From positions 1-20,163 of IMG/VR virus record IMGVR_UViG_3300004369_000884: 20,163 nt of DNA, one strand, 5' to 3'. Both the position numbers and the translations under genes were made by a program. Of this stretch, positions 3-13,630 are shown piece after piece. Each line of letters begins with the position of its first letter. The first letter of the stretch is position 1. This DNA comes from a virus. The notes under the pieces were generated by a model. That model saw nothing but the letters and a program-made list of their open reading frames with translations. It did no database searches and had not been told where the DNA came from.

Positions 3-563
3 CTGACTGGAACCCCAACGGCTCCTACCGCTGCAACGACTACGAGCACCACTCAGATTGCGACGACTGCTTTCGTTCAGCAGGAAATCAACGCATTGGT
101 TGACGCCGCTCCGGGCACTTTGGACACGTTGAACGAGTTGGCTGCAGCGCTCGGAGATGACGCCAACTTCTCGACGACGGTGACTGACTCGCTGGCGTTG
201 AAGGCTCCGTTGGCTTCACCGACCTTTACTGGAACGGTTACTCTTCCTGCTGGCACAAACATTCGTCACGACTATGACGGGTATAGTTCAAACACCACGT
301 TGGTTGCTGGTCACGCAGGTCATACTTTGGAAATCTCATCAGCGGCGAATATCAATGTCCCTACGAACGCTTCAGTAGCGTTCCCTGTTGGAACTGTTAT
401 TAACATTATTCAGACCGGAACAGGCACAGCGACAGTTAATGCTTTATCGGGAGTTACAATTAATGCTGCGGTTGGTCTTAAAACCCGTGAACAGTGGTCT
501 ATGGTAACGTTGCATAAGCGTGGAACCGATACTTGGCTCCTGACTGGCGATGCAAAGGCGTGA
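3..563 (+). CDS. Tail fibre protein, C-terminal part (5' end outside window)
   Basis: The reading frame is open from the window edge and ends at the TGA at 561-563, giving about 186 C-terminal residues. The early part has the motif order of phage tail-fibre repeats: a Thr-rich stretch (TTTSTTQIATTAFVQQEI), then LDTLNELAAALGDD, then SLALKAPLASPTFTGTV. This alternation of short helices and beta turns is common in long trimeric tail fibres. The last 90 residues are Thr/Val/Asn-rich and look like a beta-structured tip (ending TWLLTGDAKA). It is probably a receptor-binding or fibre-shaft protein on the virion. The next gene begins 7 nt later, so the two are probably co-transcribed. The family is inferred from sequence pattern; which fibre it is cannot be told. 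Confidence 0.8.
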   Translation: MTGTPTAPTAATTTSTTQIATTAFVQQEINALVDAAPGTLDTLNELAAALGDDANFSTTVTDSLALKAPLASPTFTGTVTLPAGTNIRHDYDGYSSNTTLVAGHAGHTLEISSAANINVPTNASVAFPVGTVINIIQTGTGTATVNALSGVTINAAVGLKTREQWSMVTLHKRGTDTWLLTGDAKA

Positions 564-569
564 TGACTG

Positions 570-1244
570 ATGGCACAAGATAGGGGCGGAAGCCTTCCTT
601 TCGGAACTTTCACATACACCGACGGCACGGACGCCGGCAACCTCGTCACGTCTCTGGTTGGCCTCGGGTTCCCTGCCACAGAAGCAGTCGATACGTCAAA
701 TACCACGGTTTCTGGCGATGTTGGTAAAGCCCATGAAATCGTTGTAGACGGTGTCACCTATACGACCACGTCAAGTTTTGAGATTCCTCTTGGCACAACT
801 ATTTCTGTTCGAGCGATTGGTCCGTTCTTCCCGCCGCACTTCCCACCTCACTTTCCTCCGTTTTTCCCGCCCCACTTCCCTCCCCATTTCCCTCCGTTCT
901 TCCCTCCCCATTTCCCTCCGCACTTCCCTCCGTTCTTCCCGCCTCATTTCCCGCCACACTTCCCGCCCCACTTCCCTCCGCACTTCCCTCCGTTCTTCCC
1001 TCCCCATTTCCCGCCGCACTTCCCGCCGTTCTTCCCTCCTCATTTCCCGCCACACTTCCCGCCCCATTTCCCGCCGCACTTCCCACCATTCTTCCCTCCG
1101 CATTTCCCGCCACACTTCCCACCATTCTTCCCTCCGCATTTCCCGCCACACTTCCCGCCATTTTTCCCGCCGCACTTCCCACCGTGGTTCCCTCCTCACT
1201 TCCCGCCACATTTCCCTCCGTTTTTCCCGCCGGGCTTCAAGTGA
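570..1244 (+). CDS. FPPX tetrapeptide-repeat protein, putative appendage/structural protein
   Basis: A 224-residue protein. Residues 1-86 form a Gly/Thr/Val-rich, probably beta-structured head resembling small phage fibre modules. Residues 87-222 are 34 perfect tandem tetrapeptides of the form Phe-Pro-Pro-X, where X is His in 23, Phe in 9, Trp in one and Gly in the last. The protein ends Phe-Lys. The H/F pattern has a higher-order period: mostly HHF (12 residues), plus two consecutive HHHHFHHF blocks that look like a 96 bp duplication. No signal peptide or membrane segment is visible. The start is ATG at 570 with AAAGGCG nine bases upstream. It lies between a tail-fibre gene and a small membrane protein, so a virion role is likely. 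I do not recognise the repeat from a named family. The Pro-Pro content makes it a candidate substrate for the prolyl-hydroxylase-like enzymes downstream, but this is inference. Confidence 0.8.
   Translation: MAQDRGGSLPFGTFTYTDGTDAGNLVTSLVGLGFPATEAVDTSNTTVSGDVGKAHEIVVDGVTYTTTSSFEIPLGTTISVRAIGPFFPPHFPPHFPPFFPPHFPPHFPPFFPPHFPPHFPPFFPPHFPPHFPPHFPPHFPPFFPPHFPPHFPPFFPPHFPPHFPPHFPPHFPPFFPPHFPPHFPPFFPPHFPPHFPPFFPPHFPPWFPPHFPPHFPPFFPPGFK
828..1235 (+). repeat. 34 x 12-bp coding tandem repeat (FPPX)
   Basis: Thirty-four in-frame 12-bp units, each TTY-CCN-CCN-NNN. Proline codons vary freely (CCG, CCC, CCT, CCA) and His alternates CAC/CAT, so selection appears to act on the protein rather than the DNA. 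Units 10-17 (from 936) and 18-25 (from 1032) share the same HHHHFHHF order and nearly the same bases over their first 35 nt, indicating a recent 96-bp duplication. The plus strand is almost all pyrimidine and the minus strand almost all purine. Confidence 0.95.
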
Positions 1245-1247
1245 TGG

Positions 1248-1529
1248 GTGTCCGGGGTGCGCAAGTTTTTAAACTGGTACCTCGGACCCATCAACCTTGA
1301 GCGTGATTCGCGTGTTAGTGGTGGGTTCGGCTGGATCGGCCTGATAGCGATCATCGTTACATACGATGTATTTGCTATGAGGACTAAGCGAATAGAGACA
1401 CTATCTCGATATTTTTGGCGGTCAGCCGAACAAAGCATTGCTGGCCCAGCCCTTCGCTTAATTTGGGTTTGGCTCACTTTCCATCTACTTTTCGAGGCGA
1501 AAGTGAGGAAGGTGCTGCACGGAAAGTGA
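1248..1529 (+). CDS. Small two-helix membrane protein
   Basis: A 93-residue basic protein with two hydrophobic segments, about residues 26-44 (GGFGWIGLIAIIVTYDVFA) and 65-82 (IAGPALRLIWVWLTFHLL), joined by a charged loop with a LSRYFWRSAEQ-type amphipathic stretch. The start is GTG at 1248, 3 nt after the upstream stop; the ATG at 1244 is out of frame and closes quickly. The layout (segment, YD, polar loop with LS..F.R, second segment, HL) resembles small membrane proteins common in actinophages (DUF7427-like), but I cannot confirm that family from sequence alone. Its position after virion-like genes would also allow a lysis-associated or membrane-anchoring role. The function is unknown. Confidence 0.6.
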   Translation: MSGVRKFLNWYLGPINLERDSRVSGGFGWIGLIAIIVTYDVFAMRTKRIETLSRYFWRSAEQSIAGPALRLIWVWLTFHLLFEAKVRKVLHGK

Positions 1530-1575: not shown

Positions 1576-2211
1576 ATGGCTGATGTAGAAGAGGTATCCC
1601 TCATCCAGCCCGGACACTTTGGATCTTCGGTTGACAATATCACCATCATCGAAGACTTCGTCGATCCGGACCACCTTAAAATCCTGCAAGATTTTTTCCC
1701 AACAATTGATGAGTGGGAAAATCCTCTCGGGGACGAGTTCAACGAAGACGGAACGTGCATCTATGACGCCTCATATTGGTGGGACAGGATGTGTAGCGGA
1801 ACAATCCTTCAGAGGATTGCGCCAGACATGCATGAGTTGATCGATTTTTACATCGACAAGATGCAACGTGTGCTTGAAGAAAAGTTCAACGTTTCGCTCT
1901 ACAAGAGGCCTCCGGTTTTGATTCGATGGTTGCCCGGCAACGAACAGCAACCACACGCGGACAAGCAATTGAATGACGGAGCACCAAACCCGTTCCCCTT
2001 GTATGACATCAACTCAATCATTTATTGGAACGACAATTTCGAGGGTGGAGACTTCTACTATCCGGAGCATGACATCCACCTCCCCATCAAAGCGGGAATG
2101 GCAGTCGCCCATCCGGGTGATGTCCACTATCTACATGGGGTTAAGCCCATCATCTCAGGTGAACGATGGACAACCCCTTCGTTCTACACGATCACGGAAG
2201 TGAGGAAGTAA
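1576..2211 (+). CDS. 2OG-Fe(II) oxygenase, prolyl-4-hydroxylase-like (A)
   Basis: A 211-residue cytosolic protein with a double-stranded beta-helix oxygenase core. The iron ligands are read as H127-x-D129 (QPHADKQ) and H187 (VHYLHGV), with R197 (GERWT) ten residues later to bind the 2-oxoglutarate carboxylate. The spacing and the preceding YWNDNFEGGDFYYPE strand-turn are typical of the prolyl-4-hydroxylase/Tpa1-like group. The expected reaction is hydroxylation of a protein side chain or small molecule using O2 and 2-oxoglutarate, releasing succinate and CO2. I chose ATG 1576 over the upstream in-frame TTG at 1546 because a -10 box lies directly before it. It shares a TAATG overlap with oxygenase B. 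It is the first enzyme after the structural genes and probably opens the operon. The substrate is not known. Confidence 0.85.
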   Translation: MADVEEVSLIQPGHFGSSVDNITIIEDFVDPDHLKILQDFFPTIDEWENPLGDEFNEDGTCIYDASYWWDRMCSGTILQRIAPDMHELIDFYIDKMQRVLEEKFNVSLYKRPPVLIRWLPGNEQQPHADKQLNDGAPNPFPLYDINSIIYWNDNFEGGDFYYPEHDIHLPIKAGMAVAHPGDVHYLHGVKPIISGERWTTPSFYTITEVRK

Positions 2212-2915
2212 TGCGTATCGGCGGCTATTTGGGAAATCCAACAGACGGAATTCTTCTTTACAAGGATGTCTGGCCGAAAGAATCTGATTTTGTTGGACGC
2301 CTTGAGCGTGGCCTTGAAGGAAGTTCTCACGAATACTTTTCGTGGAAGCAGGCAACTGTCGGTGACTACGAGGTCATGAAGGACTATCGAGACTGCTTTG
2401 ATTTCAAACTCCGTCAAGCAGACATGCCGGTTCCAGAGGAATTCGCTGATCTCGGTCGGGTCTACGAAGAAGTTATCGGTGGTGTTCGCGAATGCGTTCG
2501 ACACTACTCATCTCTCTACAACCTCCAACTCGATTACGAGGAAGCGACCAACTTCGTCAAGTATGGCGAGGGACAGCACTTCGCAATTCACCCGGACTCC
2601 GGCTTCTCGTACTCTTGTGCCGTGTCGGCGATTGGATACATCAACGACGATTATGAAGGCGGCGAGTATGTCATGCCGTTCAAGAATCTGAAATTCATCC
2701 CTGAGGCTGGCGATGTGATCGTTCACCCGAGTGATTTCATTTATGCCCACGCATCACAGCCGGTTGCATCCGGTGTCAAGTATTCAGCAGTGACGATGTA
2801 CGACTACAACGACCGTAACCATCAGGCGCATTCCGCACCCAAAGCAGCAGAACCGATCATCACGATGAACAACATCCCGGTGGTCAACAACCAAACATCG
2901 GCATACAACGGATGA
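2211..2915 (+). CDS. 2OG-Fe(II) oxygenase, prolyl-4-hydroxylase-like (B)
   Basis: A 234-residue protein whose start codon overlaps the upstream stop (TAATG), with GAGGAAGT just upstream as ribosome-binding site. The iron ligands are H127-x-D129 (AIHPDSG) and H180 (IYAHASQPV). The 2OG-binding residue ten positions later is K190 (SGVKYS), the Lys variant also found in animal collagen prolyl 4-hydroxylase. The core carries the IGYINDDYEGGEYVMP signature of the family. Residues from about 200 to 234 form an extra Asn/Pro/Ala-rich tail outside the catalytic fold. The closest relative in this window is the oxygenase at 12495, which shares the HAS.PV.SGVKYS.V motif. An in-frame ATG at 2166 would give a longer N-terminus, but it lies within gene A and lacks a good ribosome-binding site. 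Confidence 0.88.
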   Translation: MRIGGYLGNPTDGILLYKDVWPKESDFVGRLERGLEGSSHEYFSWKQATVGDYEVMKDYRDCFDFKLRQADMPVPEEFADLGRVYEEVIGGVRECVRHYSSLYNLQLDYEEATNFVKYGEGQHFAIHPDSGFSYSCAVSAIGYINDDYEGGEYVMPFKNLKFIPEAGDVIVHPSDFIYAHASQPVASGVKYSAVTMYDYNDRNHQAHSAPKAAEPIITMNNIPVVNNQTSAYNG

Positions 2916-3634
2916 AAGCAACGGTCACAAGGACTCACCAGAATCCTCCACAAATCCGCCAAGCGACGGTACGTAGAGACTGGATGGACGAGACGTACAA
3001 GAAGCATGCGTACAAATGCCTTCCGTTGACAGAAGCGAACGTCAACGGTTGGGAATTGGTTCTCCAACAAGATGTCGTAATTCAATGGGATGGCGGTCTA
3101 ACTGTTCCACGGGTTCTGAGTGGCGAAAAAATGACGTTTGAGACAAACGGCCAGACCTACGAGCGCGACATCGTCATGCCCAGCATTATCGGGATTATGT
3201 CATTCACAACCGGCTGGTCGTTTTCAACCCCTCCGGGAATCGCCACATGGATCAGCGGGTCGCCTAATTACTTTGTTGATGGCGCAGTTCCATTGACTGC
3301 TCATATCCCATCAGACTGGTGGCCCGACGAGTTCAACATGAACTGGAAAATCACCAAGATCGGCGAACCTGTCGTTTTCCCCGCTGGGTCACCATTCATG
3401 TTTTTCCAGTTTTACGACACCTCGTTGATGCCCAGCATCGAGTTCGAAGTAGAGAACTACTGGGACAAGCCAGAACTTTCTTCTGCCAGACAGTCCTATG
3501 GCGATGCGAAAATGAAGAAGTTGCAAGATGAGCCATGGACATGGATGGGTGGCATCCGGACAGGGCTCGACGAGAACGGAAACAGGATTGGGCCTCGACA
3601 TGAGGGTCACGTTGAACTAAAGGAACCTCAGTGA
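2912..3634 (+). CDS. DUF6065-like protein (first copy)
   Basis: A 240-residue protein starting with an ATGA overlap on oxygenase B. It carries features I associate with DUF6065, a family of unknown function. These are a CLPLTEANVNGWEL segment at about residues 36-49, then QWDGG, then GWSFSTPPG at about 101-109, an acidic/Trp segment with FNMNW, and finally a FPAGSPF strand. A second protein at 16994 keeps the same order (PWEIKTAPGWS, MNW, IPMGTPI), so this window has two divergent copies. No transmembrane segment or known catalytic triad is visible. The compact beta-rich pattern suggests a binding or small enzymatic domain. It sits inside the oxygenase operon, so it may bind or present the substrate, which is inference. 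The family assignment comes from memory of motif order and is moderately sure. Confidence 0.6.
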   Translation: MKATVTRTHQNPPQIRQATVRRDWMDETYKKHAYKCLPLTEANVNGWELVLQQDVVIQWDGGLTVPRVLSGEKMTFETNGQTYERDIVMPSIIGIMSFTTGWSFSTPPGIATWISGSPNYFVDGAVPLTAHIPSDWWPDEFNMNWKITKIGEPVVFPAGSPFMFFQFYDTSLMPSIEFEVENYWDKPELSSARQSYGDAKMKKLQDEPWTWMGGIRTGLDENGNRIGPRHEGHVELKEPQ

Positions 3635-5205
3635 GAAAATTTGGCGGAATTGCTCTCGGCCTAAAACTTGGAAATCTTGGTTTCAAGATCAAAGGCGTCA
3701 CAGCAGAACAGGTGTTCGACGACCCTGCGTACTTCAAAGAGATCTTCAAGCGCAACAAGGTCATTGGTTTCATCGGAATGAGGCCAACCGACACGGAGCA
3801 CATGCAGTTGGTCGACTGTCTCTACAAGGGTGAGCGCGACCCAGAGTTCAGTAGTGGACTATTGGCTGGTCAGCGGCACGAAACAGTAAGAGATGTCGAA
3901 GACAAACTTGACCCAGAGGGTTTTCTTGAGCGCAACTGGCATGTGGATAACCCATTCCTCGATGAACCGCCATGCCTCGTCTCGATTCACATGACCACCT
4001 ACAAGGTTGATCCCGACTATGGGCACACCTTTTTTGTCAGCCTCGCCAACCTCTACGATGAGTGTCCGGCCCATATCAAAGAACACCTCAAGGATGCTCG
4101 ATTCGTTTGCCAGACAGGCGCAATCGATCAGGACATTTCGACCCACCCTGCACTGCGAACCCATCCCGATACTGGCGAAACAATGCTGTATTGGACTGGA
4201 CCGGGAACAGCCCTTGCTGGCGGTAACACGCCGTGGTTCGATGAACTATACGAGTGGGTTACCAATTACTGCGCCAACGAAGCGAATCGTTTCAAATGGG
4301 TTTGGTCTGAGGGTGATGTGATCATCTGGGACAACCGCGCTGTGATGCACGGCTTTTACAGCGGGTGGGATCGTTCTGAGCGAATTTTCCAGAGGGTCGA
4401 GGTGGGCAACGAAAAGCCTTTCTACGACCCGGAGCATATGGGGAACTGTGATCCCGACTTTGGTGACACCAATGAGTACAAGGGTGTAAAGAAGGATAAA
4501 TCCAAGGGACCGAATCCGGACCACATTCCTCTTGTGTTCACCAAGGGTATTTATGCGCTGGAAGGACTCGAACACCTCTTCCAGAAAGTAACTCTTTTTG
4601 TTTTTTCAAAGGATGGGTTTATCCCTGAGAAGGTTCAGGAGTTCAAGAATTACATCGACGAAACGGATGATCTGGCTGATGATTTCCACGTCGTGGGTGT
4701 GCCAATCGATGAATCAAATCGCGTTTTCGCAAATTTGATGCGTTACAGCAAGAGCCACAATGTTGAAGATCCCGTGGAAGGACAGATGTTTTTGTTCTCT
4801 CGGAACGGCGACACTCATGGTGGCTCAATGCCGGCACGTCAGGATCTGATGCAGTCCAAGGGTAATGAAGACGGATCTCTCACCCCGATGGAAACAGTTC
4901 GTGCGTATCTACGGTGGCACCCTGACATGCGCCACGCAGGTCACGCTTGGCATTACCCCGACTGGTTCCCGCATCAACCTTTGCAGTTCCGGCCTTGGGA
5001 TTATCACAACCTTTCGTTCATGACCTATGAGGGGTTTGGTGGAAAGAACCCGCCCGAAGACTTCTTGGTGCAGTTCGCCATCGACACGATCTACGGTTGT
5101 TTCAATCACCTGAGAGACAACGGCGAGCGTCGGAGAATCATTGAACGGATCAATGATTACATTTCGTACATGCTGGAGTTGGATGAACATGAGTTCGAAA
5201 GATAA
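3631..5205 (+). CDS. TauD/TfdA-type oxygenase with unknown C-terminal domain
   Basis: A 524-residue protein starting at GTG 3631 (GTGA overlap, AAAGGA six bases upstream). Residues 1-265 form a TauD/TfdA dioxygenase domain: H104-x-D106 (NWHVDNPF), distal H240 in WDNRAVMHGFY, and R251/R255 in RIFQRVEVG for 2-oxoglutarate and substrate binding. Typical TauD proteins are about 280-300 residues, so this one is nearly twice the usual length. Residues 290-524 form a separate region with an alternating strand/helix opening (VTLFVFSKDGF, then DDFHVVGVPIDES). It continues with a QMFLFSRNGD segment, a His/Trp-rich stretch (RHAGHAWHYPDWFPHQP) and a helical end. I do not recognise this second domain. The fusion implies a dedicated partner function, perhaps substrate recognition or a second catalytic step. 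The first domain is well supported; the C-terminal role is unknown. Confidence 0.82.
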   Translation: MRKFGGIALGLKLGNLGFKIKGVTAEQVFDDPAYFKEIFKRNKVIGFIGMRPTDTEHMQLVDCLYKGERDPEFSSGLLAGQRHETVRDVEDKLDPEGFLERNWHVDNPFLDEPPCLVSIHMTTYKVDPDYGHTFFVSLANLYDECPAHIKEHLKDARFVCQTGAIDQDISTHPALRTHPDTGETMLYWTGPGTALAGGNTPWFDELYEWVTNYCANEANRFKWVWSEGDVIIWDNRAVMHGFYSGWDRSERIFQRVEVGNEKPFYDPEHMGNCDPDFGDTNEYKGVKKDKSKGPNPDHIPLVFTKGIYALEGLEHLFQKVTLFVFSKDGFIPEKVQEFKNYIDETDDLADDFHVVGVPIDESNRVFANLMRYSKSHNVEDPVEGQMFLFSRNGDTHGGSMPARQDLMQSKGNEDGSLTPMETVRAYLRWHPDMRHAGHAWHYPDWFPHQPLQFRPWDYHNLSFMTYEGFGGKNPPEDFLVQFAIDTIYGCFNHLRDNGERRRIIERINDYISYMLELDEHEFER

Positions 5206-6025
5206 AGACCTGCCAGTCGGCAAACACCTCGGAGGGGGCGTAGTCCTTTTCGAACAAGTGTTCGATCTTGACTGGGACTGGATGCGGGATTACTGCAAAA
5301 CAGTTTTGCAGCAAGAACGAGACACTATGTACACCCCGGGGGTTGATCCGATTACCGGAGAGGATGGCTACATCAACCGGAGCGGATACTTCTTCAAGAA
5401 GGACTCCATCGATGAGATGCCGTGGCGAGGAAGTTTTGTCCATCAGGACAGTCGTCTAGAAGTGATCGAAACCCTTGAATACATCGAGGAACGCCGAGAC
5501 CAGTGTCTGCTCTCCTACCTTGAGATGTTCCCCATTGCTGGTAAGTGCATTTGGTGGAAAATCAAGAGCCACATTGTTGCGTATCCAGTTGGCGGGTTCT
5601 TGGGCATGCATGCCGATGTCAGCACCGATTACGAGTATGGCAAGCCTCATCCGCGAGACCAGTTGGCGACACGTAACTCGGTTTCCGTGGTTGCATACCT
5701 GAATGACAGTGTCGAAACCGAAGAGGAACTCGACGGAACAAATTTCACTGGCGGCGCCCACAATTTCGCATATCTCGACATCAATCATAAGAAGATCAGG
5801 AAGGGCGACATGCTCTTTTTCCCCTCCAACTACGTGGCGGCACATGAAGTTCAGCCGGTAACCGGAGGGTGGCGCTACTCCTACTTAGGGTGGTATTGTC
5901 AGGGCACACCGAATCCGGCGGTGTGTGAAAATGTAATGGATCCGCGCGAGAACCCGGAACTTGCCAAAATCTCAACGAATGTGTACATGGAACATGGCTA
6001 CTCAATCCTCCCCCCAGTCGGCTAA
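5189..6025 (+). CDS. 2OG-Fe(II) oxygenase, IWW subgroup (E)
   Basis: A 278-residue protein with iron ligands H141-x-D143 (GMHADVST) and H219 (YVAAHEV), and 2OG-binding R229 (GGWRYSY). Just before the first ligand is the segment CIWWKIKSHIVAYPVGG, shared as x-IWW-x4-H with the proteins at 6575 and 7230. The three therefore form one paralogous subgroup. A loop between the catalytic strands (ETEEELDGTNFTGGA) is longer than in its relatives. About 40 C-terminal residues follow the core, including two Cys. ATG 5189 overlaps the end of the previous gene by 17 nt and has GGAG ten bases upstream; an in-frame ATG lies 6 nt earlier. Translation is presumably coupled to the TauD-fusion gene. The substrate is unknown; hydroxylation of a protein side chain is the default expectation for this fold. 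Confidence 0.85.
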   Translation: MSSKDKDLPVGKHLGGGVVLFEQVFDLDWDWMRDYCKTVLQQERDTMYTPGVDPITGEDGYINRSGYFFKKDSIDEMPWRGSFVHQDSRLEVIETLEYIEERRDQCLLSYLEMFPIAGKCIWWKIKSHIVAYPVGGFLGMHADVSTDYEYGKPHPRDQLATRNSVSVVAYLNDSVETEEELDGTNFTGGAHNFAYLDINHKKIRKGDMLFFPSNYVAAHEVQPVTGGWRYSYLGWYCQGTPNPAVCENVMDPRENPELAKISTNVYMEHGYSILPPVG

Positions 6026-6575
6026 ATCAATCGGGATTATTCACCCCGGAAAGATGGGTGGCACGCTCGCCTATGCGCTCAAGAGAAGCGGTCATACCGT
6101 TTATTGGGCATCAGAGGGTCGCTCCGACGTTACCGAAGCACGCGCGAACGAATTCGATCTGGTGGATCTCGTCAATATCAACACGGTTCTTTCCAAAAGC
6201 GATTTCGTGATTTGTATCGCTTTCGGTGGCGCTCCACTTGAAGTCGCCAAGCACGTTGCCAAGGTTGGCTACTCGGGCATCTATATCGATGCCAACGGCC
6301 TCTGGGGCGAAGAGTCCGAGAAGGAAGTTGCATCAATCATCAACGAGGCTGGAATCACTTACGTCGAGGCTGGCCTGTACGGATGGCCGTATCCGGGCCG
6401 CGATGGCTACACAGATGAGCACACGCTCTACTTGTCGGGCGAAAAAGCGCAAGACGTCGCCGACCTGTTCACCGATGGATACTGGACAACGGAGATCCAC
6501 GAAACTTCCGCAAAGGAAGTTAAGCGTCTACGTAATGACCGGGAGCGAGGAACAGAGTTCCCCGACAAAGACTGA
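5994..6575 (+). CDS. NAD(P)-binding domain protein (6PGDH/DUF1932-like N-domain only)
   Basis: A 193-residue Rossmann-fold protein. The dinucleotide-binding loop is at residues 13-23 (IGIIHPGKMGG), followed by a second strand ending VYWASEGRS, whose Arg suggests NADPH rather than NADH. The pattern IG..HPG.MG...A....GH.V.W..EGRS is that of the beta-hydroxyacid/phosphogluconate dehydrogenase relatives that normally carry a C-terminal DUF1932 helical domain. That helical dimerisation and substrate domain is absent: the protein stops soon after the nucleotide-binding fold, where family members usually run to about 270-300 residues. It overlaps gene E by 32 nt and ends in a 1-nt overlap with the next oxygenase. 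It may supply a reductase activity for a hydroxylated or keto intermediate, or be a bare NADPH-binding module. The start ATG lacks a strong ribosome-binding site. Confidence 0.7.
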   Translation: MATQSSPQSAKSIGIIHPGKMGGTLAYALKRSGHTVYWASEGRSDVTEARANEFDLVDLVNINTVLSKSDFVICIAFGGAPLEVAKHVAKVGYSGIYIDANGLWGEESEKEVASIINEAGITYVEAGLYGWPYPGRDGYTDEHTLYLSGEKAQDVADLFTDGYWTTEIHETSAKEVKRLRNDRERGTEFPDKD

Positions 6576-7243
6576 TGGAAGTTATTCATCACGGTTTTGG
6601 CATCGTCGAGTACGTCGACGCAATTAAGTTTGATTCTGACTTTTTTGAGGCTTGGCTTGCACGGCGCCGAATGCAGGAACCCAGCGACTACGAGCCAGTA
6701 GGTGACGGAACCTACATGAACCGTGGTGGATACATCTTCACTGAAGAGCAGGTCAATGCTTCCCCCGGTCGTCTGCTTCAACTAAAAGTTGACGCCAGCG
6801 ATGAAGACGTGGTTTTTGCGGAAGGTTTGGAAAACGCAATGACCATGTGCGTTTCAAAATATTTTGATTTCTTCCCCGAAGCGCGCCACAGCATTTGGTG
6901 GAGAGCGGTTCCACATGTCGCAACATACGTCAAGGGCGGGTACATGGGGTATCACCATGACAATCTTGTTGGTGACGGGTACGAAAGCGAAAAAGCGATT
7001 TACAGCGTGCTGACAGGATCCCTAATTCTTAAAGACGATTGCGAAGGCGGTGACTTGGGTTTCAAGTACATCGACAAACATTTCAAACCTAAAACAGGTT
7101 CCGCTTTCGTTTATCCGGCTGGATTCTTGGGAACACATGAAGTTGTCCCCGTGACGTCAGGTGAGCGTGTTTCTTACTTGGAATTCTTTGGGCACGGAAC
7201 GCTTGTCGGAACTATTCCGTTTACGCCTCTTAGTACGGAATAA
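6575..7243 (+). CDS. 2OG-Fe(II) oxygenase, IWW subgroup (G)
   Basis: A 222-residue protein with iron ligands H127-x-D129 (GYHHDNL), distal H188 (LGTHEVVPV) and 2OG-binding R198 (SGERVSY). It shares the SIWWRAVPH segment and the GFLGTHEV/YVGTHGV distal strand with the genes at 5189 and 7230. An early motif, GTYMNRGGYIFTEEQ, parallels GYINRSGYFFKKD of gene E, showing that the N-terminal region is conserved too. Its ATG overlaps the last base of the previous stop (TGATG). It is the last plus-strand gene of this run, and its final 14 nt overlap convergently with the minus-strand oxygenase. Both proteins end in a similar Gly-Thr-(Val)-Ile-Pro-aromatic stretch. Confidence 0.86.
   Translation: MEVIHHGFGIVEYVDAIKFDSDFFEAWLARRRMQEPSDYEPVGDGTYMNRGGYIFTEEQVNASPGRLLQLKVDASDEDVVFAEGLENAMTMCVSKYFDFFPEARHSIWWRAVPHVATYVKGGYMGYHHDNLVGDGYESEKAIYSVLTGSLILKDDCEGGDLGFKYIDKHFKPKTGSAFVYPAGFLGTHEVVPVTSGERVSYLEFFGHGTLVGTIPFTPLSTE
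7213..7242. terminator. Inverted repeat at convergent gene ends, possible two-way terminator
   Basis: TATTCCGT at 7213-7220 and ACGGAATA at 7235-7242 are perfect 8-bp inverted repeats around a 14-nt loop. The repeat spans the stop codons of the two converging oxygenase genes. No run of T follows on either strand, so a classical intrinsic terminator is not proven. The placement at the only convergent junction in the window is the main support. Confidence 0.3.
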
Positions 7244-8219
7244 CAGTACCGACGGGTGCTCCCTCTTTCGAGCGCTCCTGAGTTTCAATGGTGGAGGCGT
7301 GGAAACCAAGAGCGACATCTTTGGACGTATCCAAATCGGAATATCCAGAATGCGCAAACTTCACGTGGTCCTGATACAAGAACGGAACGTAAACTGGAGC
7401 CAGCCACATATCGCTTTCCTGCGGCTCTAAAACCTCATACTTGTGCTCGCCGCCGTGTCCAAACTGCGTCAGGTACGTATAGCGCGGCGTTTCTCCAGTC
7501 ACCTGTGCGACGCCGTGGGTTCCAACATAGTTTGCCGGGAAAAGAATGATGTCTCCGGTTTTCGGCTTGATCGTCAAGTCGAGATAAGGGAAATGCATCT
7601 CCCCACCCTCGTAGTCATCGTTGAAGTAGGCCAGACCGTTGACGACCTGATACATGGCGATCTCTCTGCCGCTGTAGTACCTCTGACCATCAATGACGAA
7701 CGTATTCGTATCGTTATCGTTGTGTAGACCGAGGTTTGCACCCGGCATGTACTTCAGGCAATGACCGCGCATTCTCCACCAAATGCTATTAACAATGAGT
7801 GGGTACAGATCGCAGTATCTGACAAGAGCGTGATACAGGGATTCCTCTACATGCTCGAAGAACGAACGAACTTCGTGGGGCGTTCCGGGGTGAACCGGCT
7901 CTGGCATGCCCATGCCTCCAACGCGCATCGGAAGGGCGAGGAGATCCTTGATGTCGACAATTTTTCCGTCAAAGGTTTCCCCACGGATCATATTGCCTTC
8001 GTCATCTTTGATGATCTCTAGGCCACACGAGGGGACGTACGCCATCTCGTCAATGTACGGGAGTACAACACTTTGATCGATTTCGAAAGCATTATGGAAA
8101 TGAATGACCCCACCAACGTAACTGGTGTAAGACATCTTCCCGATTCTTGCGCAGTCAGCCTCGTCTAGGCTGTAAAAGGCATACTTGTCTCTTGTGGGCT
8201 CACCGTATCGTGCTGGCAT
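7230..8219 (-). CDS. 2OG-Fe(II) oxygenase, IWW subgroup (H)
   Basis: A 329-residue protein, the longest single-domain oxygenase here. The iron ligands are H166-x-D168 (GLHNDND), distal H235 (YVGTHGV) and R246 (ETPRYTY), which lies 11 residues after the His rather than the usual 10. The core includes LAYFNDDYEGGEMHFPYL and the subgroup signature NSIWWRMRGH. Relative to genes E and G it has an N-terminal extension of about 30 residues, an insertion at about residues 75-115 (Gly/Met/Pro-rich) and a C-terminal extension of about 65 residues. Starting at residue 29 (MSYTSYVGG) is possible but leaves no ribosome-binding spacer. It is the last gene of the minus-strand operon, 9 nt after the methyltransferase-like gene. 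This subgroup therefore occurs in both operons and on both strands. Confidence 0.85.
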   Translation of the reverse strand: MPARYGEPTRDKYAFYSLDEADCARIGKMSYTSYVGGVIHFHNAFEIDQSVVLPYIDEMAYVPSCGLEIIKDDEGNMIRGETFDGKIVDIKDLLALPMRVGGMGMPEPVHPGTPHEVRSFFEHVEESLYHALVRYCDLYPLIVNSIWWRMRGHCLKYMPGANLGLHNDNDTNTFVIDGQRYYSGREIAMYQVVNGLAYFNDDYEGGEMHFPYLDLTIKPKTGDIILFPANYVGTHGVAQVTGETPRYTYLTQFGHGGEHKYEVLEPQESDMWLAPVYVPFLYQDHVKFAHSGYSDLDTSKDVALGFHASTIETQERSKEGAPVGTVIPY

Positions 8220-8228
8220 GTTGCCAGA

Positions 8229-9002
8229 TTACCTCAATTTGTAGGCGAGAATGGTACCTATCTCGTCGTGTGCCAAGTGATAAACCTCAAAATCGTCTCG
8301 CTGGACAATTCTCCGATTAACCCTATGCATGCGCTCTTCGTGCGCTCGCATACCATCCTCGTACAAAGCCCCAAATTCGGCTAGGTCGTAGATCATCATG
8401 ATTCCGCCAACCCGGATTGAGTCGAGAAGGCCGTCAATGATATTGAGGTTTGGGGTAAGGAAGTCGTGAGTGTGGAGGCGAGCGGAGTCGAAATAGTTAA
8501 CGATCGTTCCTTGCTCGAAATCCTGAAGGTCGATCACGCTGTATGTGCATTCGGACTGGTTGGGGATCGTTCCGTTTTCGTCGAGGGTGTCCTCCATGAT
8601 CCGAGTCTCAAACGTGTTGATCCAATAGTAATCCTTGCTTGCCGCCTGCATATGGGAGGTATGCATGTGGATCGGGAACGAGCCGGAAATCAGGATTTTT
8701 TCCGGCGTCGCACTGTCTACTGGCTTCAAAATGCCATATAGTGACTTCACCGCGACGTAGTTGCGCCATGCGTACTCAAGCCACGTGTTGTCCTGCTCGC
8801 CGAGCCACGTCGAGTATTTCCAGAAATACCAGTCTCTACCCATTACGGCCTGTCGCATGTCGGCACCGGTCTCAAGGATCGCAGCATCAGCGAGGCGTGA
8901 ATAGTCGCGGACGATGCTGAGTTCGTCGTCCCAAGTAGTTCCGGTCTGATTCGTTGAAAGGCTCCGAGCAACAACGCCTTTATTGAAGATATTGCTAGAC
9001 AT
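8229..9002 (-). CDS. Methyltransferase-fold-like protein (first copy)
   Basis: A 257-residue protein starting at ATG 9002, with TGAGGT eight bases upstream; its start overlaps the preceding gene by 8 nt. Residues 100-257 show a Rossmann-like alternation: strand KILISGSFP, strand TYSVIDLQ, then NIIDGLLDSIRVGGIMMIYD at about 186-205, and a final hairpin DDFEVYHLAHDEIGTILAYKLR. The last two elements resemble strands 5-7 of class I SAM-dependent methyltransferases, but the usual Gly-rich SAM loop is not clear. The protein at 16267 has the same arrangement, including DDIFVYHIPVSLGITVLTKR at its end, so the two are distant paralogs. The N-terminal 100 residues are Trp/Tyr-rich and helical. Methyl transfer or SAM binding is a working guess, not shown. 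Confidence 0.5.
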   Translation of the reverse strand: MSSNIFNKGVVARSLSTNQTGTTWDDELSIVRDYSRLADAAILETGADMRQAVMGRDWYFWKYSTWLGEQDNTWLEYAWRNYVAVKSLYGILKPVDSATPEKILISGSFPIHMHTSHMQAASKDYYWINTFETRIMEDTLDENGTIPNQSECTYSVIDLQDFEQGTIVNYFDSARLHTHDFLTPNLNIIDGLLDSIRVGGIMMIYDLAEFGALYEDGMRAHEERMHRVNRRIVQRDDFEVYHLAHDEIGTILAYKLR

Positions 9003-9330
9003 TGTTTGCAACCTCAAATGACGAAATATGACGACGTCGCCAGAATCTGCGGCAGAGCAAAATCATCCAACTTTTTTGCTTCCTCCCAAAGGAGAACCCG
9101 GAGTCAAACGAGCGATCCTTGCCGTTGATATTGACGTACGACTCCATTTGGTGCGGTTCGAACATCCATCCGCAACGAGCAACCAAGTCGTCGATCGTAT
9201 ACGTTTCCATATCTGCCTCGGTAAGGCCGAGAATGTAAAAGCATGAAAGAAGGTGGGTGTTCACCCAGTCGAGTTCGGCTTGTGAACTGTACACCTTCCC
9301 GGAGGTTTGGCTCGTCGATCGAATTGCCAT
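8995..9330 (-). CDS. Hypothetical protein, 111 aa
   Basis: I do not recognise this protein. Residues 1-70 are mixed helix with LDWVNTHLLSCFYILGLTEADMETY and an MFEPHQMESYV segment. The last 35 residues switch to a strongly basic, Trp-rich stretch (GRKQKSWMILLCRRFWRRR), which could bind nucleic acid or membrane. It sits in a chain of overlapping minus-strand genes: its ATG shares one base with the upstream stop (TGATG), and its stop overlaps the next start by 8 nt. This tight coupling supports a real gene. The compositional change near the C-terminus could also reflect a frame change; that cannot be settled here. Confidence 0.6.
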   Translation of the reverse strand: MAIRSTSQTSGKVYSSQAELDWVNTHLLSCFYILGLTEADMETYTIDDLVARCGWMFEPHQMESYVNINGKDRSFDSGFSFGRKQKSWMILLCRRFWRRRHISSFEVANNV

Positions 9331-9560
9331 CAGATGTCTTCTTTGATTTTCTCGCAGAGAATGACGGCACCTTCCTCGGTGAACTCAAGAGCACCCACCG
9401 TGGGGTTGAACGCAATTGTCTGTTCCATGCGATCGTCGAGAGGGGATGACTCATTGGGGTTTTCTTCTGGAAGAGCCTTTCCTGACGCTGCGGCAACCTC
9501 GCGTGGGTGTCGGTCATCTCCATTGATGACGGCGAGCAAATGAGGTGACGAGAACTTCAT
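9330..9560 (-). CDS. Hypothetical acidic protein, 76 aa
   Basis: A small acidic protein of unknown function. It starts with an ATGA overlap on the upstream gene and ends sharing one base with the next start. The opening (MKFSSPHLLAVINGDD) suggests a beta strand. A Pro/Glu/Ser-rich middle (ALPEENPNESSPLDD) looks flexible, and the C-terminal part (FTEEGAVILCEKIKEDI) looks helical. No known motif, signal peptide or membrane segment is visible. Confidence 0.6.
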   Translation of the reverse strand: MKFSSPHLLAVINGDDRHPREVAAASGKALPEENPNESSPLDDRMEQTIAFNPTVGALEFTEEGAVILCEKIKEDI

Positions 9561-9769
9561 GACGTGAGTGCTTCGAATGCCGACAACTGCCGTTTGAGGG
9601 ACACGTAGTTGTAGTAGTTCGGGTCGCCTTCCGGAACAGGGATCTCCATGGCTGATGTTGCGCTCTGAGTGTCAACCTCAAGAAATGTGCAAAGAACAAA
9701 GATCGAGTACTCAAGGAAATCCTGTGCCTCTGATTTTGCCTGCGCGATGATTGCTGGCGAAAGTGCCAT
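9557..9769 (-). CDS. Hypothetical small protein, 70 aa
   Basis: I do not recognise this protein. It has a strong ribosome-binding site (AAGGAG) before its ATG, 12 nt after the upstream gene. It begins with a helical segment (AIIAQAKSEAQDFLEYSIFVLCTFLEV) and continues with a Pro/Tyr/Asn-rich stretch (EGDPNYYNYVSLKRQLSAF). The hydrophobic run at about residues 21-30 is too short for a clear membrane segment. Its stop overlaps the next start (ATGA), indicating translational coupling. Confidence 0.6.
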   Translation of the reverse strand: MALSPAIIAQAKSEAQDFLEYSIFVLCTFLEVDTQSATSAMEIPVPEGDPNYYNYVSLKRQLSAFEALTS

Positions 9770-9781
9770 GATTGCTCCTTA

Positions 9782-9994
9782 TCAGAGGCTTGCCATGTAA
9801 GCCTTAGCGGCGTTAAGCCTACCAAGAGCACCGACCACTTCAGCGTCACTCGGATCGTCTGAAGTGAAATCATCGGTCAAGGACTCCGGCTCAATACCGC
9901 GTCCAAGGCAGGCAATGAGTAAATCTTCCTCAAGTGCGCCGAGAGCATCCTCAACTGCTTCCAGTTTTTCGGCATCGGAAATCGTATAAACCAT
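9782..9994 (-). CDS. Hypothetical acidic small protein, paralog of upstream gene
   Basis: A 70-residue, strongly acidic helical protein. The N-terminal half (ISDAEKLEAVEDALGALEEDL) looks like an amphipathic helix. The second half has the pattern LI..L..G..P.......DP followed by L.RL..A.AY...L. The 77-residue protein encoded just upstream on the same strand shares this pattern, so the two appear to be tandem duplicates. An AAGGGG ribosome-binding site lies ten bases before the ATG. The function is unknown; a DNA mimic, adaptor or regulator is possible but has no direct support. Confidence 0.6.
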   Translation of the reverse strand: MVYTISDAEKLEAVEDALGALEEDLLIACLGRGIEPESLTDDFTSDDPSDAEVVGALGRLNAAKAYMASL

Positions 9995-9999
9995 GAGAA

Positions 10000-10233
10000 T
10001 CAGACCCCTTCCAGCGCGCTCTTCAAGCGGTTATAGGCGGCAACCCGCTCGGCTAGACGGATGTCGAGAACACCCTCGCAGTCTTCTGCTGCTGGGTGTG
10101 TGGCGGGATCAACTTCATCGGGGTTAACGCCCGCGTGCAAGGCAGCAACCACGATCAATTTTTCCTGTTCTTTTAGGACATTTGACAGATGCTGACGTCG
10201 TGCTTCACTGCTAATTCTGTTCAGCGCTACCAT
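10000..10233 (-). CDS. Hypothetical small helical protein, first gene of minus operon
   Basis: A 77-residue helical protein, basic at the N-terminus (ALNRISSEARRQHLSNVLKEQEKL) and acidic later. The ATG at 10233 is preferred over the ATG at 10272. A clear TGGAG ribosome-binding site precedes it by eight bases, and the promoter at 10271-10279 would start transcription inside the longer frame. It shares EKLI..A...G..PDEVDP and RLAERVAAYNRL patterns with the next gene, suggesting tandem duplication. It is the promoter-proximal gene of a seven-gene minus-strand operon ending in the 329-residue oxygenase. The function is unknown. Confidence 0.6.
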   Translation of the reverse strand: MVALNRISSEARRQHLSNVLKEQEKLIVVAALHAGVNPDEVDPATHPAAEDCEGVLDIRLAERVAAYNRLKSALEGV

Positions 10234-10263
10234 ACTTTTTCTCCAGAGGACGAGGTGATAACC

Positions 10264-10279
10264 AGTAATCATTGTAGCA
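10264..10279 (-). promoter_or_regulatory. Extended -10 promoter for minus-strand operon
   Basis: On the minus strand TGCTACAAT (10279 to 10271) is an extended -10 with a near-consensus TACAAT hexamer. Transcription would start near 10264, giving a leader of about 30 nt that carries the TGGAG ribosome-binding site of the gene at 10233. No -35 match is evident. It is divergent from the promoter at 10301. Confidence 0.5.
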
Positions 10280-10300
10280 CGTATGCATACCGGGCAGTCG

Positions 10301-10315
10301 TGGTATTATTCGACC
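10301..10315 (+). promoter_or_regulatory. Extended -10 promoter, probable leaderless start
   Basis: TGGTATTAT at 10301-10309 is an extended -10 (TGn-TATTAT). The ATG at 10316 is the seventh base after it, so the mRNA should begin at the start codon. The box lies only about 22 bp from the divergent minus-strand promoter, so the two may compete or be co-regulated. Confidence 0.5.
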
Positions 10316-10960
10316 ATGCTCAAAATTGCTCCTCCTTCCCAAGATTTAATTGACATTTTGAAGTCTGAACACCACATGGGTCCCACGGCAGATGGTGGGA
10401 GCATCTACGACCTACATCTGTCCCCCGTTGATGGATCTGGGAGCAACATGCTCGCTGACCGCCACGGGAAGGTGACGATGATCGTCAACGTCACCGGGGA
10501 GTGTGGGAACTCGATGCAGTACCCAATGTTGCAGGTCCTTGAATACGACTACGCCGATTATGGCTTCAAAATTCTCTGCATCCCGACAAATGATTATTGC
10601 GAATACGCATACGGGGACTTTAAGAACAACTCAACCAGCACGGCGGAACAGGCATATGACTATGCTTACTACAACTACCGCGTGAGAATGGATTTCTCGG
10701 AACTTGCTGTTTCGAGGTACGAACACGAGGGTGAAGAACCAAAAACACCACATCCTCTTTACGAGCGGCTTGGCGTGCAGGGTAGTCCGATTCGGGGAAA
10801 TTTCGAAAAGTGGGTGGTCTCCAAGGACGGAACCAACCGAGCCAGATTTACCAACGGGTCACTTCTCCCGGCAAACCTTGAAACCGGATACGACTATTAC
10901 AGCCCACAAGAGGCGTTGCGTCGTATCCGTGCGGCGATCGAGTACTACCTGTCGGAGTAA
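10316..10960 (+). CDS. Glutathione-peroxidase-like protein
   Basis: A 214-residue thioredoxin-fold protein. Residues 29-100 follow the glutathione peroxidase pattern: IYDLHLSPVDG, then GKVTMIVNVTGECGNSMQYPML with C63 in the active-site position, then GFKILCIPTNDYC. Near 161-170, GNFEKWVVSKDG aligns with the family's WNFEKFLVDKDG, keeping the Asn but losing the active-site Trp. The usual FGGQ glutamine motif is not recognisable. C95 is a second Cys that could act in resolution. The expected role is thiol-dependent peroxide reduction, which would protect the nearby iron and flavin oxygenases or the host cell. A region of about 45 residues (105-150, Tyr-rich) replaces the family's normal middle loop. 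The start is ATG 10316, placed by the adjacent -10 box rather than the in-frame ATG at 10283. With two altered catalytic positions, the activity is uncertain. Confidence 0.72.
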   Translation: MLKIAPPSQDLIDILKSEHHMGPTADGGSIYDLHLSPVDGSGSNMLADRHGKVTMIVNVTGECGNSMQYPMLQVLEYDYADYGFKILCIPTNDYCEYAYGDFKNNSTSTAEQAYDYAYYNYRVRMDFSELAVSRYEHEGEEPKTPHPLYERLGVQGSPIRGNFEKWVVSKDGTNRARFTNGSLLPANLETGYDYYSPQEALRRIRAAIEYYLSE

Positions 10961-10962
10961 AA

Positions 10963-11913
10963 ATGAATTGGTCCCCGAGGACAGGGGTGTCGACTAAAAA
11001 CCTTAGCGTGCATGTAGACGACCTCGTAAGTGACTATAAGGCTACGGGCCTGATAAGCCTCAAAAGTCTTTACGCCGATCACGACGCGGTCGCAGAACTC
11101 TGCACCTTGCTGTCACCACACCTCAAATGGCACCATTACGTTGATGACACAACCTTTATGGCGTGGCCATACAAACAAGACCATGACGGCAGGATTGGCG
11201 TGGTGTCAGATCAAGGGAGAAATGAACCCGATGTCACCCTGATCGAATGGCACATCGAAGGTGTTTCGATGCAATACCCACAATGGGGTGGGGCTTGGAA
11301 CATGTACAACTTCAAAGCGCCCCCCAACTCTGGCTCGACAGGCTTCGTTGACATGGCTGGCCTATACAACGATCTCTCTGTGGACGAACGCAAGTTTCTT
11401 GATTCAGCGGAGATTATCCATTTCTGTAACTGGACGATCCCCCCCACGGAGGAGCAGTTCGGTAAATTCATGGATTCGGTTTCGCAAGGTAAGCGAATAA
11501 TTTACAGCAAAGACGGCGACGAATACGTTGCCTCCTTTTCCCGACCCGCAGTTGAGCGTCATCCGACGTTCGGCATGTCGACACTACGGACTTGCCCATG
11601 TCACAATTCCTTCGGGCTGCAAGAGCATTTACTTCTTGTTGGGGGGCGGATTCCCAGCGATGGCGAAAGAGACTTTTTTGCCAAGACGATGGACAAGATC
11701 CGTTGGGAAATATCGGAAAACGAAGAACGCCAGCATTGGTATTTCTGGGATGAAGGCGATCTCCTGATCGTCGACCTGTTTCGATTGGCTCACGGAGTGC
11801 GCGCCGGGTACGAAAAGGGCCAACGAAACTTTCAGGGATATTGGCTGTTTGAGCCGGGAGTTCCAGAAGAGCCGTCTCCTAGACTCTTGTCCCTTCCGGA
11901 TGATATAGGATGA
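10963..11913 (+). CDS. TauD/TfdA-like oxygenase with HxE iron motif
   Basis: A 316-residue protein starting 2 nt after the peroxidase-like gene, with CGGAG seven bases before the ATG. The proposed iron ligands are H97-x-E99 (EWHIEGVSMQYP) and H277 (RLAHGVRAGY), with R288 (GQRNFQGYW) for 2-oxoglutarate. The HxE form replaces the more usual HxD and is established in clavaminate synthase and the VioC/AsnO amino-acid hydroxylases, which belong to the same superfamily. The stretch EGDLLIVDLFRLAHGVRAGY matches the distal-His strand of TauD/TfdA proteins (GD....D...-.HG). It may therefore hydroxylate a free or carrier-bound amino acid, which is inference. The middle region (about 150-230) has several Cys (CPCHNSF) not typical of the family. 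Confidence 0.72.
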   Translation: MNWSPRTGVSTKNLSVHVDDLVSDYKATGLISLKSLYADHDAVAELCTLLSPHLKWHHYVDDTTFMAWPYKQDHDGRIGVVSDQGRNEPDVTLIEWHIEGVSMQYPQWGGAWNMYNFKAPPNSGSTGFVDMAGLYNDLSVDERKFLDSAEIIHFCNWTIPPTEEQFGKFMDSVSQGKRIIYSKDGDEYVASFSRPAVERHPTFGMSTLRTCPCHNSFGLQEHLLLVGGRIPSDGERDFFAKTMDKIRWEISENEERQHWYFWDEGDLLIVDLFRLAHGVRAGYEKGQRNFQGYWLFEPGVPEEPSPRLLSLPDDIG

Positions 11914-11917
11914 CCTC
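11906..11917 (+). promoter_or_regulatory. Possible -10 box, leaderless spacing
   Basis: TAGGAT at 11906-11911 (within TGATATAGGAT) ends 6 bases before the ATG at 11918, the same spacing as the boxes before 10316 and 16994. No good -35 is seen. It overlaps the upstream gene's end, so readthrough from upstream is equally possible. Confidence 0.3.
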
Positions 11918-12076
11918 ATGACGACGCCGCCCTTTAACCCCAACGACGTGATTGCCGACCTATCGGAGCAAGTCAAGCAGTTGTCTCTCAACAATACGAT
12001 CTTGCGCGCAATGCTGAAGGCTTCCAACGAAGCAATCGACGCCCTGCAAAAGGTCGAGACCGAGGACGATGTGTAA
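11918..12076 (+). CDS. Small coiled-coil-like protein, 52 aa
   Basis: The frame runs from ATG 11918 to TAA 12076 and encodes 52 residues. After a short MTTPPFNPND start it is one predicted helix (VIADLSEQVKQLSLNNTILR..., then ASNEAIDALQKVE) with a heptad-like Leu/Ile spacing, ending in an acidic tail. Its stop shares one base with the next start (TAATG), supporting a translated gene. Small coiled-coil proteins of this type are common phage adaptors. The function is not known. Confidence 0.6.
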   Translation: MTTPPFNPNDVIADLSEQVKQLSLNNTILRAMLKASNEAIDALQKVETEDDV

Positions 12077-12498
12077 TGGAACGTGTTATCTACGTTCCAT
12101 CTGAAGAAGATCTGACAGAAGCGAACAATCTTGCGTTAAATACAGGATTACCGATACAGGTTGGCGATTCCGAACTCACTTCTGATTTATCGTTTAACAG
12201 GGACGAAACACAAATTCTTGAAATTCCGACTGTTCAGGAGTTGATTGTTTCTCGAAACTTCTTCCGTCTTGGCCAGATCCTCCGTGTGGAATACGTCGAC
12301 GAGTACGACAGTGTTGCCAATGTGAAGATGCGCCTAACTCACGAGAGTGGCGTATCGGAAGAGTTCAAAGGCGATGGTTATTTCGAGGATTCCAGCGTCG
12401 TATTCAAAGTTCGACCTAAATCTATCGGCAAGTATGCTGGAGATATTTTTGATAATGATGGGGTTATCGGCACTTTCTCCTGTGAGGTAAGGGCATGA
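12076..12498 (+). CDS. Hypothetical beta-rich protein, 140 aa
   Basis: I do not recognise this protein. It begins MERVIYVPSEEDLTEAN and then alternates short strands and loops: ILEIPTVQELIVSRNFF, LRVEYVDEYDSVANVKMRLT and SSVVFKVRPKSIGKY, ending GVIGTFSCEVRA. The pattern suggests a small all-beta, perhaps immunoglobulin-like domain, and the protein is acidic overall. It overlaps the preceding gene by 1 nt and the following oxygenase by 4 nt (ATGA), so it is translationally coupled to that enzyme and may act with it. No signal peptide or membrane segment is visible. Confidence 0.6.
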   Translation: MERVIYVPSEEDLTEANNLALNTGLPIQVGDSELTSDLSFNRDETQILEIPTVQELIVSRNFFRLGQILRVEYVDEYDSVANVKMRLTHESGVSEEFKGDGYFEDSSVVFKVRPKSIGKYAGDIFDNDGVIGTFSCEVRA

Positions 12499-13058
12499 TT
12501 GATGCCTTCATCAAGGTCTCAAAGGTCGAGTGCGACTTTGCGTCTCTCGTTACGCTGGCTGAGCAATGGTCTCAAATTCCCGGATTTCCATCACGTTGGA
12601 GGCAGGGAACTGTCGGTGACGGGGAAATAATTGCCGGTCGCTCAAATCAGATCTTCGACATTCAGGCCGTTCTGGAAAACGAAGACTACAGAACTCACCC
12701 CATGGTCTCGGCTTTCAGGGATATCCACAAAGTTATCGATCCAATTATCACCGCATACAAGGAGGAATTTTCGATTCCTCTTCGTTTTGACAACGGGTGG
12801 GCGTTGAACCGCTACCAAGAGAGTCAGCAGTATGTGAACCATTACGACTGGTCTCCCGGTGAAGACAGGACGGTAAGTATCGTCGTGATGGCCAACACTT
12901 GCGAGTCTGGGGGAGAACTCGTTTTCACTGAAGCAAACGTGTCCATTCCCGCCGAAGAGGGAAATGTCGTTGTCTTTCCTTCTTCGTTTCCTTACAGGCA
13001 TGCATCTATGCCGGTCAAGTCGGGTGTTAAGTATTCGCTAGTGTCGTGGCTGGGTTAA
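12495..13058 (+). CDS. 2OG-Fe(II) oxygenase, prolyl-4-hydroxylase-like, Lys type
   Basis: A compact 187-residue oxygenase. The iron ligands are H116-x-D118 (VNHYDWS) and H169 (PYRHASMPV), with K179 (SGVKYS) ten residues on as the 2-oxoglutarate anchor. The core has SIVVMANTCESGGELVF in place of the usual YLN..-EGGE strand. It is closest in this window to oxygenase B, with a shared distal motif HAS.PV.SGVKYS.V. It starts with an ATGA overlap and is followed 2 nt later by a related degenerate protein and then by the halogenase. Phage and bacterial gene clusters often place such oxygenases next to flavin halogenases, so joint action on one substrate is plausible. It is a minimal version of the fold, lacking N- and C-terminal extensions. 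Confidence 0.85.
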   Translation: MIDAFIKVSKVECDFASLVTLAEQWSQIPGFPSRWRQGTVGDGEIIAGRSNQIFDIQAVLENEDYRTHPMVSAFRDIHKVIDPIITAYKEEFSIPLRFDNGWALNRYQESQQYVNHYDWSPGEDRTVSIVVMANTCESGGELVFTEANVSIPAEEGNVVVFPSSFPYRHASMPVKSGVKYSLVSWLG

Positions 13059-13060
13059 TC

Positions 13061-13624: not shown

Positions 13625-13630
13625 TGACTG

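Follow-up and report, generated by a model that had tools for sequence, protein, structure and literature searches.

The principle of a proline-rich repeat that is served by its own prolyl hydroxylase is already known in other systems. Animal collagens, for example, are tandem proline-rich rods that undergo prolyl hydroxylation, collagen-like rods also occur as phage tail fibers, and the hydroxyproline-rich glycoproteins of plants and algae likewise combine proline-rich repeats with small prolyl-4-hydroxylases (P4Hs) of the same fold (algal P4H, PDB 3gze). A virus-encoded P4H fold has been described in chlorovirus PBCV-1 (vCPH, PDB 5c5t), and this enzyme was reported to turn Pro-containing peptides into hydroxyproline-containing ones in a sequence-specific manner (Eriksson et al. 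1999, as cited in PMC7019647). Hydroxyproline was sought in chlorovirus particles and not found, and the role of vCPH is stated to be unknown (PMC7019647). Aquatic phages have many 2OG-Fe(II) oxygenases (one cyanophage has 24), and what these enzymes do there is described as uninvestigated (PMC9602691). In the Baltic water column, a viral prolyl 4-hydroxylase also ranked with the most abundant auxiliary genes, and its use to the virus "remains cryptic" (PMC9301287).

Here we describe a locus in a 20,163-bp IMG/VR virus fragment (the window, meaning the whole stretch of DNA analyzed) in which a gene for tandem Phe-Pro-Pro-aromatic units (FPPX) is followed by genes for P4H-type enzymes. In profile and fold the window enzymes resemble vCPH, but vCPH belongs to a virus of eukaryotic algae, whereas FPPX loci are multigene enzyme islands beside a tandem-repeat gene. 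Collagens are built of Gly-X-Y triplets, a pattern that FPPX does not show, with no Gly inside the tract. The plant and algal glycoproteins have repeats of the Ser-Pro type with no aromatic unit, and no glycosylation gene was identified in FPPX loci. The neighboring prolyl-hydroxylase-type genes, which were overlooked in an earlier note on this DNA, are the best clue to the function of FPPX.

The FPPX gene (positions 570 to 1244, plus strand) runs from an ATG start to a TGA stop and encodes 224 amino acids. Residues 87 to 222 form 34 FPPX units with no break, followed by a terminal FK (the tract spans positions 828 to 1235, plus strand). The earlier note had described a perfect FPPH/FPPF repeat with varying codons and nested H/F periods. 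We confirmed the 34 units and found that X is H in 23, F in 9, and W and G in 1 each; the order of X is HHFHHFHHFHHHHFHHFHHHHFHHFHHFHWHHFG, which contains the HHF runs and the two adjoining HHHHFHHF blocks that the note had pointed out. TRF detected a 96-nt DNA period with 90% identity in the tract, so the H/F order is partly a product of DNA block duplication. Comparison of the FPP codons of neighboring units gave 47 synonymous and 0 nonsynonymous differences, against 231 and 660 possible changes, respectively, which indicates that the protein pattern is kept by selection, as had been claimed, and is not a fresh microsatellite. Twenty of the 34 12-mers are distinct.

Judging from the resources searched, neither the FPPX repeat family nor its link with phage P4H islands appears to have been described. 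The tract matched 0 families in PHROGs and Pfam, and nothing corresponding to the unit was found in INPHARED or in the literature searched, in agreement with the earlier view that no described family has this unit. PDB sequence matches to circumsporozoite NANP repeats reflected composition only. The whole window protein had no match in cultured phages, in a search whose sensitivity is narrowed by low-complexity masking. Among viral sequences the repeat is widespread: the exact pattern FPPHFPPHFPP occurred in 82 viral stretches and FPPFFPPFFPP in more than 120, and our collection of tracts with 8 units or more has at least 96 distinct members. The earlier note had raised the prospect that relatives carry only a short or broken version; they are long and intact, with a median of 14 and a maximum of 34 units. 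Over 2,039 units, X was F in 1,216, H in 590, Y in 207, W in 20, and another residue in 6 (99.7% aromatic), with H and F somewhat favored by scans seeded with H- and F-containing triplets and with Y and W turning up outside the seeds. The 96 tracts tend toward either an H/F or a Y/F type: 48 have H only, 31 Y only, and 15 are mixed. Habitat or lineage may underlie this split. When runs of X codons beginning with A or G were scanned for, 25 stretches came back; judged by eye, the ones that have a clear carrier are FPPS/FPPD tracts after fn3-like sequence in L230, L243, and L244. In 84,980 prokaryotic genomes, true members were found only in three metagenome-assembled genome (MAG) contigs (L097, L102, and L106), and two of the three also hold 2OG hits, so these contigs are probably viral. 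Other FPP repeats in cellular genomes were mostly low-complexity runs of FPPL or FPPH that lie in unrelated frames.

Histidine-rich glycoprotein is a described Pro/His tandem repeat (GHHPH) and in that respect resembles the window tract. A (GHHPH)4 peptide is named in PMC7432113. The 23 regularly spaced His residues of the window tract would fit an array for binding metal, which the earlier note had entertained as a function, but in FPPX His is optional and can be absent: 33 of the 96 distinct tracts have none, and F and Y replace it freely. We therefore regard a histidine metal-binding array as very improbable, and it is not supported as a general function.

The stiff polyproline-like rod suggested in the earlier note is plausible in light of the composition of the window tract (50% Pro) and of an AF2 model with neither helix nor strand, although at a pLDDT of about 50 that model proves nothing about shape. 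Such a tract might act unmodified, as a stiff rod or aromatic adhesive whose length and aromatic faces suffice and to which the adjacent enzymes are irrelevant. The Pro content, the almost invariably aromatic X, the selected pattern, and the C-terminal position described below all agree with this, and a 3-unit (12-residue) period in the order of X, found in 17 of 54 tracts, would fit a helix with three residues per turn. However, the period is partly DNA duplication, being present, more weakly, at synonymous positions as well (7 of 54 tracts), and for that reason we dropped it as proof of a polyproline-II helix. An unmodified rod also leaves the enzyme linkage unexplained, and we consider it improbable.

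The FPPX tract ends proteins whose bodies are otherwise unrelated, including PASTA, fn3, Gly-rich, and putative Ig-like types, and several carriers match tail fiber, tail spike, or baseplate families. In 93 of the 167 proteins whose end is complete, the tract was the C terminus, typically as FPP[SRGA]FK; a motif scan placed a short tail after it in 48, a Hint-like segment in 12, and an S74-like segment in 3. Pfam backs Hint_2 or S74 in some of these posttract segments. Hint and S74 domains are self-cleaving types, and their cleavage could leave the tract at the mature C terminus. The Hint-like segments (L008, L013, L016, L023, L025, L043, L135, L146, L160, L185, L186, and L206), several of which end in HNK, suggest from their sequences that some of these tail proteins process themselves.

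In the window protein the tract is preceded by a globular N-terminal domain of about 86 residues (residues 1 to 86; positions 570 to 827, plus strand), which lies within the coordinates of the earlier note but was absent from its description. Ten close relatives of this domain were found, and an alignment with 8 relatives has 21 invariant residues. AF2 folds it as a compact beta-alpha-beta unit, with a pLDDT of about 85 to 90 in most blocks of residues 11 to 83, and the top five PDB matches in Foldseek were all PASTA domains, at weak E values of 0.2 to 1.6. The window protein matched no Pfam family, PASTA (PF03793) included, and hhalign found no significant profile link between the domain (A2) and the PASTA-type carrier set (probability of 10%). 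As the sequence test for PASTA failed, we refer to the domain as PASTA-like only, a divergent form judged by its alignment and modeled fold. PASTA itself was detected at an E value of <0.01 in 5 of 40 carrier representatives, and carrier L078 passed the Pfam cutoff (24.6 bits versus 23.2). FPPX carriers thus resemble the described phage tail proteins with PASTA or fn3 domains, some of them passing or nearing the Pfam cutoffs for these families, but the tract itself is in neither family.

The FPPX gene of the window stands directly behind a tail fiber gene, the 3′ end of which (positions 3 to 563, plus strand; phrog_454, E value of 1.3e-29, with phrog_2631 and phrog_7032) stops 6 bp ahead of the FPPX start codon. 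The same order of fiber and FPPX was found in L085, L089, L091, and L011, where the open reading frame (ORF) in the fiber position has 846 to 2094 amino acids. After FPPX comes a 93-amino-acid protein (1248 to 1529, plus strand) resembling DUF7427/phrog_1042 below the cutoff, which most close relatives retain at this place, ahead of the first hydroxylase. The first enzyme, a 2OG-Fe(II) oxygenase of P4H type that we call type A (1576 to 2211, plus strand; PF13640 below the cutoff, HxD...H intact), begins 332 bp past the FPPX stop codon. It is followed by a second P4H-type enzyme, type B (2211 to 2915, plus strand; PF13640, E value of 3.7e-8, with structure matches), which has 40% identity with an enzyme beside an fn3-type FPPX gene. 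A DUF6065 protein (2912 to 3634, plus strand; E value of 8.8e-43) is conserved in FPPX loci between the hydroxylases and TauD, and the window continues with a TauD/TfdA-type 2OG dioxygenase that has a C-terminal extension (3631 to 5205, plus strand; E value of 4.8e-25). Across the window and its close relatives, the gene order is tail fiber, FPPX, usually a protein of about 90 residues, 2OG A, 2OG B, DUF6065, and TauD.

Further 2OG-Fe(II) oxygenases of family PF13640 are encoded at 5141 to 6025 (plus strand; E value of 2.7e-11), 6575 to 7243 (plus strand; 1.8e-7), 7230 to 8219 (minus strand; 1.6e-7), 12495 to 13058 (plus strand; 9.4e-14), and 15105 to 15812 (plus strand; 1.8e-8). A second TauD-type 2OG dioxygenase (10963 to 11913, plus strand; 1.5e-14), a GSHPx-like protein (10283 to 10960), and a flavin-dependent tryptophan halogenase (13631 to 15112, plus strand; 1.6e-98) lie among them. 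With seven PF13640-type and two TauD enzymes, the halogenase, and the GSHPx-like protein, the roughly 14 kb from 1576 to 15812 is an unusually dense island of oxidative enzymes. The halogenase has about 35% identity to cyanophage enzymes; a tie between it and the Trp of the tract was considered and set aside, there being no pattern across long contigs. At the far end, an open-ended ORF (18943 to 20163) has a collagen-like, Gly-rich stretch followed by a His/Asn/Tyr-rich stretch and could be another unusual fiber tip or a frameshifted end.

By iron-binding triad and double-stranded beta-helix fold, the downstream enzymes are of the prolyl-4-hydroxylase type, and prolyl hydroxylation is their predicted activity. 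The HxD...H triad (H127, D129, and H180) is invariant in 11 of 11 aligned sequences, including all 7 window enzymes. The nearest solved structures to a joint profile of the enzymes are prolyl hydroxylases, led by the Bacillus anthracis P4H (E value of 7.6e-15), and the same profile also matches chlorovirus vCPH, human collagen P4H, and algal P4H. When enzyme B was modeled with AF2 (pTM of 0.80), its nearest Foldseek matches were likewise prolyl hydroxylases, with TM-scores of about 0.4 to 0.55.

Genomic coupling between FPPX and these enzymes was observed in both directions. Starting from the repeat, 150 nonredundant FPPX loci contained 458 2OG hits (3.11 per 10 kb). Control viral loci amounting to 176 kb gave 2 (0.11 per 10 kb), and cellular loci amounting to 89 kb gave none. 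A 2OG gene was present in 83 of 102 FPPX loci of at least 8 kb versus 2 of 14 controls, and PF13640 genes were found on all 29 of 29 long FPPX contigs. The nearest 2OG enzyme lies at a median of 298 bp from FPPX, usually on the same strand and downstream; where 3 kb was available on each of the two sides, one was found within 3 kb in 32 of 37 loci and within 1 kb in 29 of 37. On eight long contigs, 56 of 67 2OG genes fell between −2 and +16 kb from FPPX, a region that makes up 16% of the sequence; genes within one contig are not independent, so that a nominal p-value for this clustering is not to be taken literally, but every one of the eight shows it. The best match of the first enzyme across carrier classes (set by a rough rule) was itself in first position in 75 of 98 cases.

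In the reverse direction, enzymes A and B were gathered by their own sequences; the alignments used consisted of enzymes next to FPPX, and each scan kept its best 80 hits, so that the result covers this enzyme subfamily only. Type A orthologues collected by sequence alone adjoin FPPX. Among loci with at least 3 kb upstream, an aromatic-Pro tract was present on the same strand no more than 5 kb upstream in 35 of 47 loci for A and 37 of 50 for B, versus 6 of 292 background windows. Counted over nonredundant loci with this upstream length among the best 80 hits per scan, FPPX was found in 32 of 34 for type A and 32 of 43 for type B; 6 more of the 43 have a different proline repeat (PPGFFAPPGFFS, FPPSFPPD), and L313, L353, and L379 show proline/Phe repeats by eye. 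In most of the loci without such a same-strand tract, FPPX is on the opposite strand or one of these different repeats (PPGFFAPPGFFS, FPPSFPPD) is present. L414 and L420 have no tract in the flank, and their contigs carry FPPX elsewhere (L005 and L036). Among the best 80 hits per scan, L328 and L336 were the sole loci without any visible proline repeat. The same classifier was positive for 1 of 22 controls and for 0 of 6 cultured-cyanophage-type or unrelated phage loci; cyanophage-type 2OG genes, tried as a large control set, provided two loci only.

An alternative hypothesis is that FPPX and the 2OG enzymes are mere neighbors in a variable island of tail fiber and accessory genes and that host metabolites, DNA, or other phage proteins are what the enzymes modify or convert. 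Published proposals for such enzymes involve 2OG/nitrogen control or DNA repair (PMC3037559), and 2OG enzymes are encoded near the tail genes of cultured cyanophages that have no FPPX-type tract, from which it follows that the wider 2OG family has other substrates. However, the same two enzyme subfamilies recur next to FPPX in unrelated carriers, the pair survives changed strand and order (L443 to L452), the same enzymes adjoin alternative proline repeats where FPPX is absent, and their nearest solved structures are prolyl hydroxylases. The persistence of the pair in inverted orders and the substitution of one proline repeat for another weaken an explanation by regional linkage, which we judge unlikely, though less so than either an unmodified rod or a metal-binding array.

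In six loci (L345, L346, L347, L350, L361, and L367), a sister repeat, PPGFF[AS], stands in place of FPPX, with the same hydroxylase subfamily adjacent. Pro-Pro-Gly, which is contained in this unit, is the classic substrate motif of collagen P4H.

The host can be suggested only broadly. The portal common to several FPPX contigs has its nearest counterparts in phages of Gordonia and Brevibacterium (about 43% across half of the protein), and a Gram-positive aquatic host is possible on this sequence likeness. No match to the anchor proteins of Pelagibacter phage HTVC008M was found in FPPX contigs. The 156-kb contig IMGVR_UViG_3300027848_000009 (G002; L261 to L268) has two portals, and its actinophage-like capsid module lies a long way from the FPPX region; the contig appears to contain two phages and may be a chimera of them, for which reason a host assignment from its capsid genes was withdrawn.

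We propose, with a probability of roughly 60%, that FPPX serves a virion adhesin as a stiff appendage at its C terminus and that the adjoining enzymes hydroxylate the prolines of this appendage, although genomic association by itself does not establish a substrate. The FPPX gene product would be an accessory tail or adhesin protein, incorporated into the virion and anchored by its small PASTA-like domain. The (Phe-Pro-Pro-aromatic)n appendage would probably form a polyproline-II-like, extended rod with aromatic rings along its length, and at the free C terminus it would be in reach of the cell surface or of other virion parts, where it may serve in adhesion. The prolines of the rod would be substrates of the P4H-type 2OG-Fe(II) oxygenases encoded directly downstream, and the conversion of some of them to hydroxyproline would alter the stiffness, solubility, or binding of the rod.

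FPPX is a very simple and apparently undescribed protein material in which aromatic-Pro-Pro rods reach 34 units. This tightly linked proline-rich gene, with its high regularity, offers the phage enzymes a concrete candidate for a substrate, which shifts their likely role from host metabolism to virion maturation. We speculate, at about even odds, that phages have a hydroxyproline-protein system of their own, in which aromatic-proline repeats (FPPX and PPGFF) on tail or adhesin proteins are paired with dedicated prolyl hydroxylases, several of which could possibly split the positions of the repeat unit among themselves. If this is true, a large class of so-called auxiliary metabolic genes would have its native substrate in the FPPX and PPGFF repeats.
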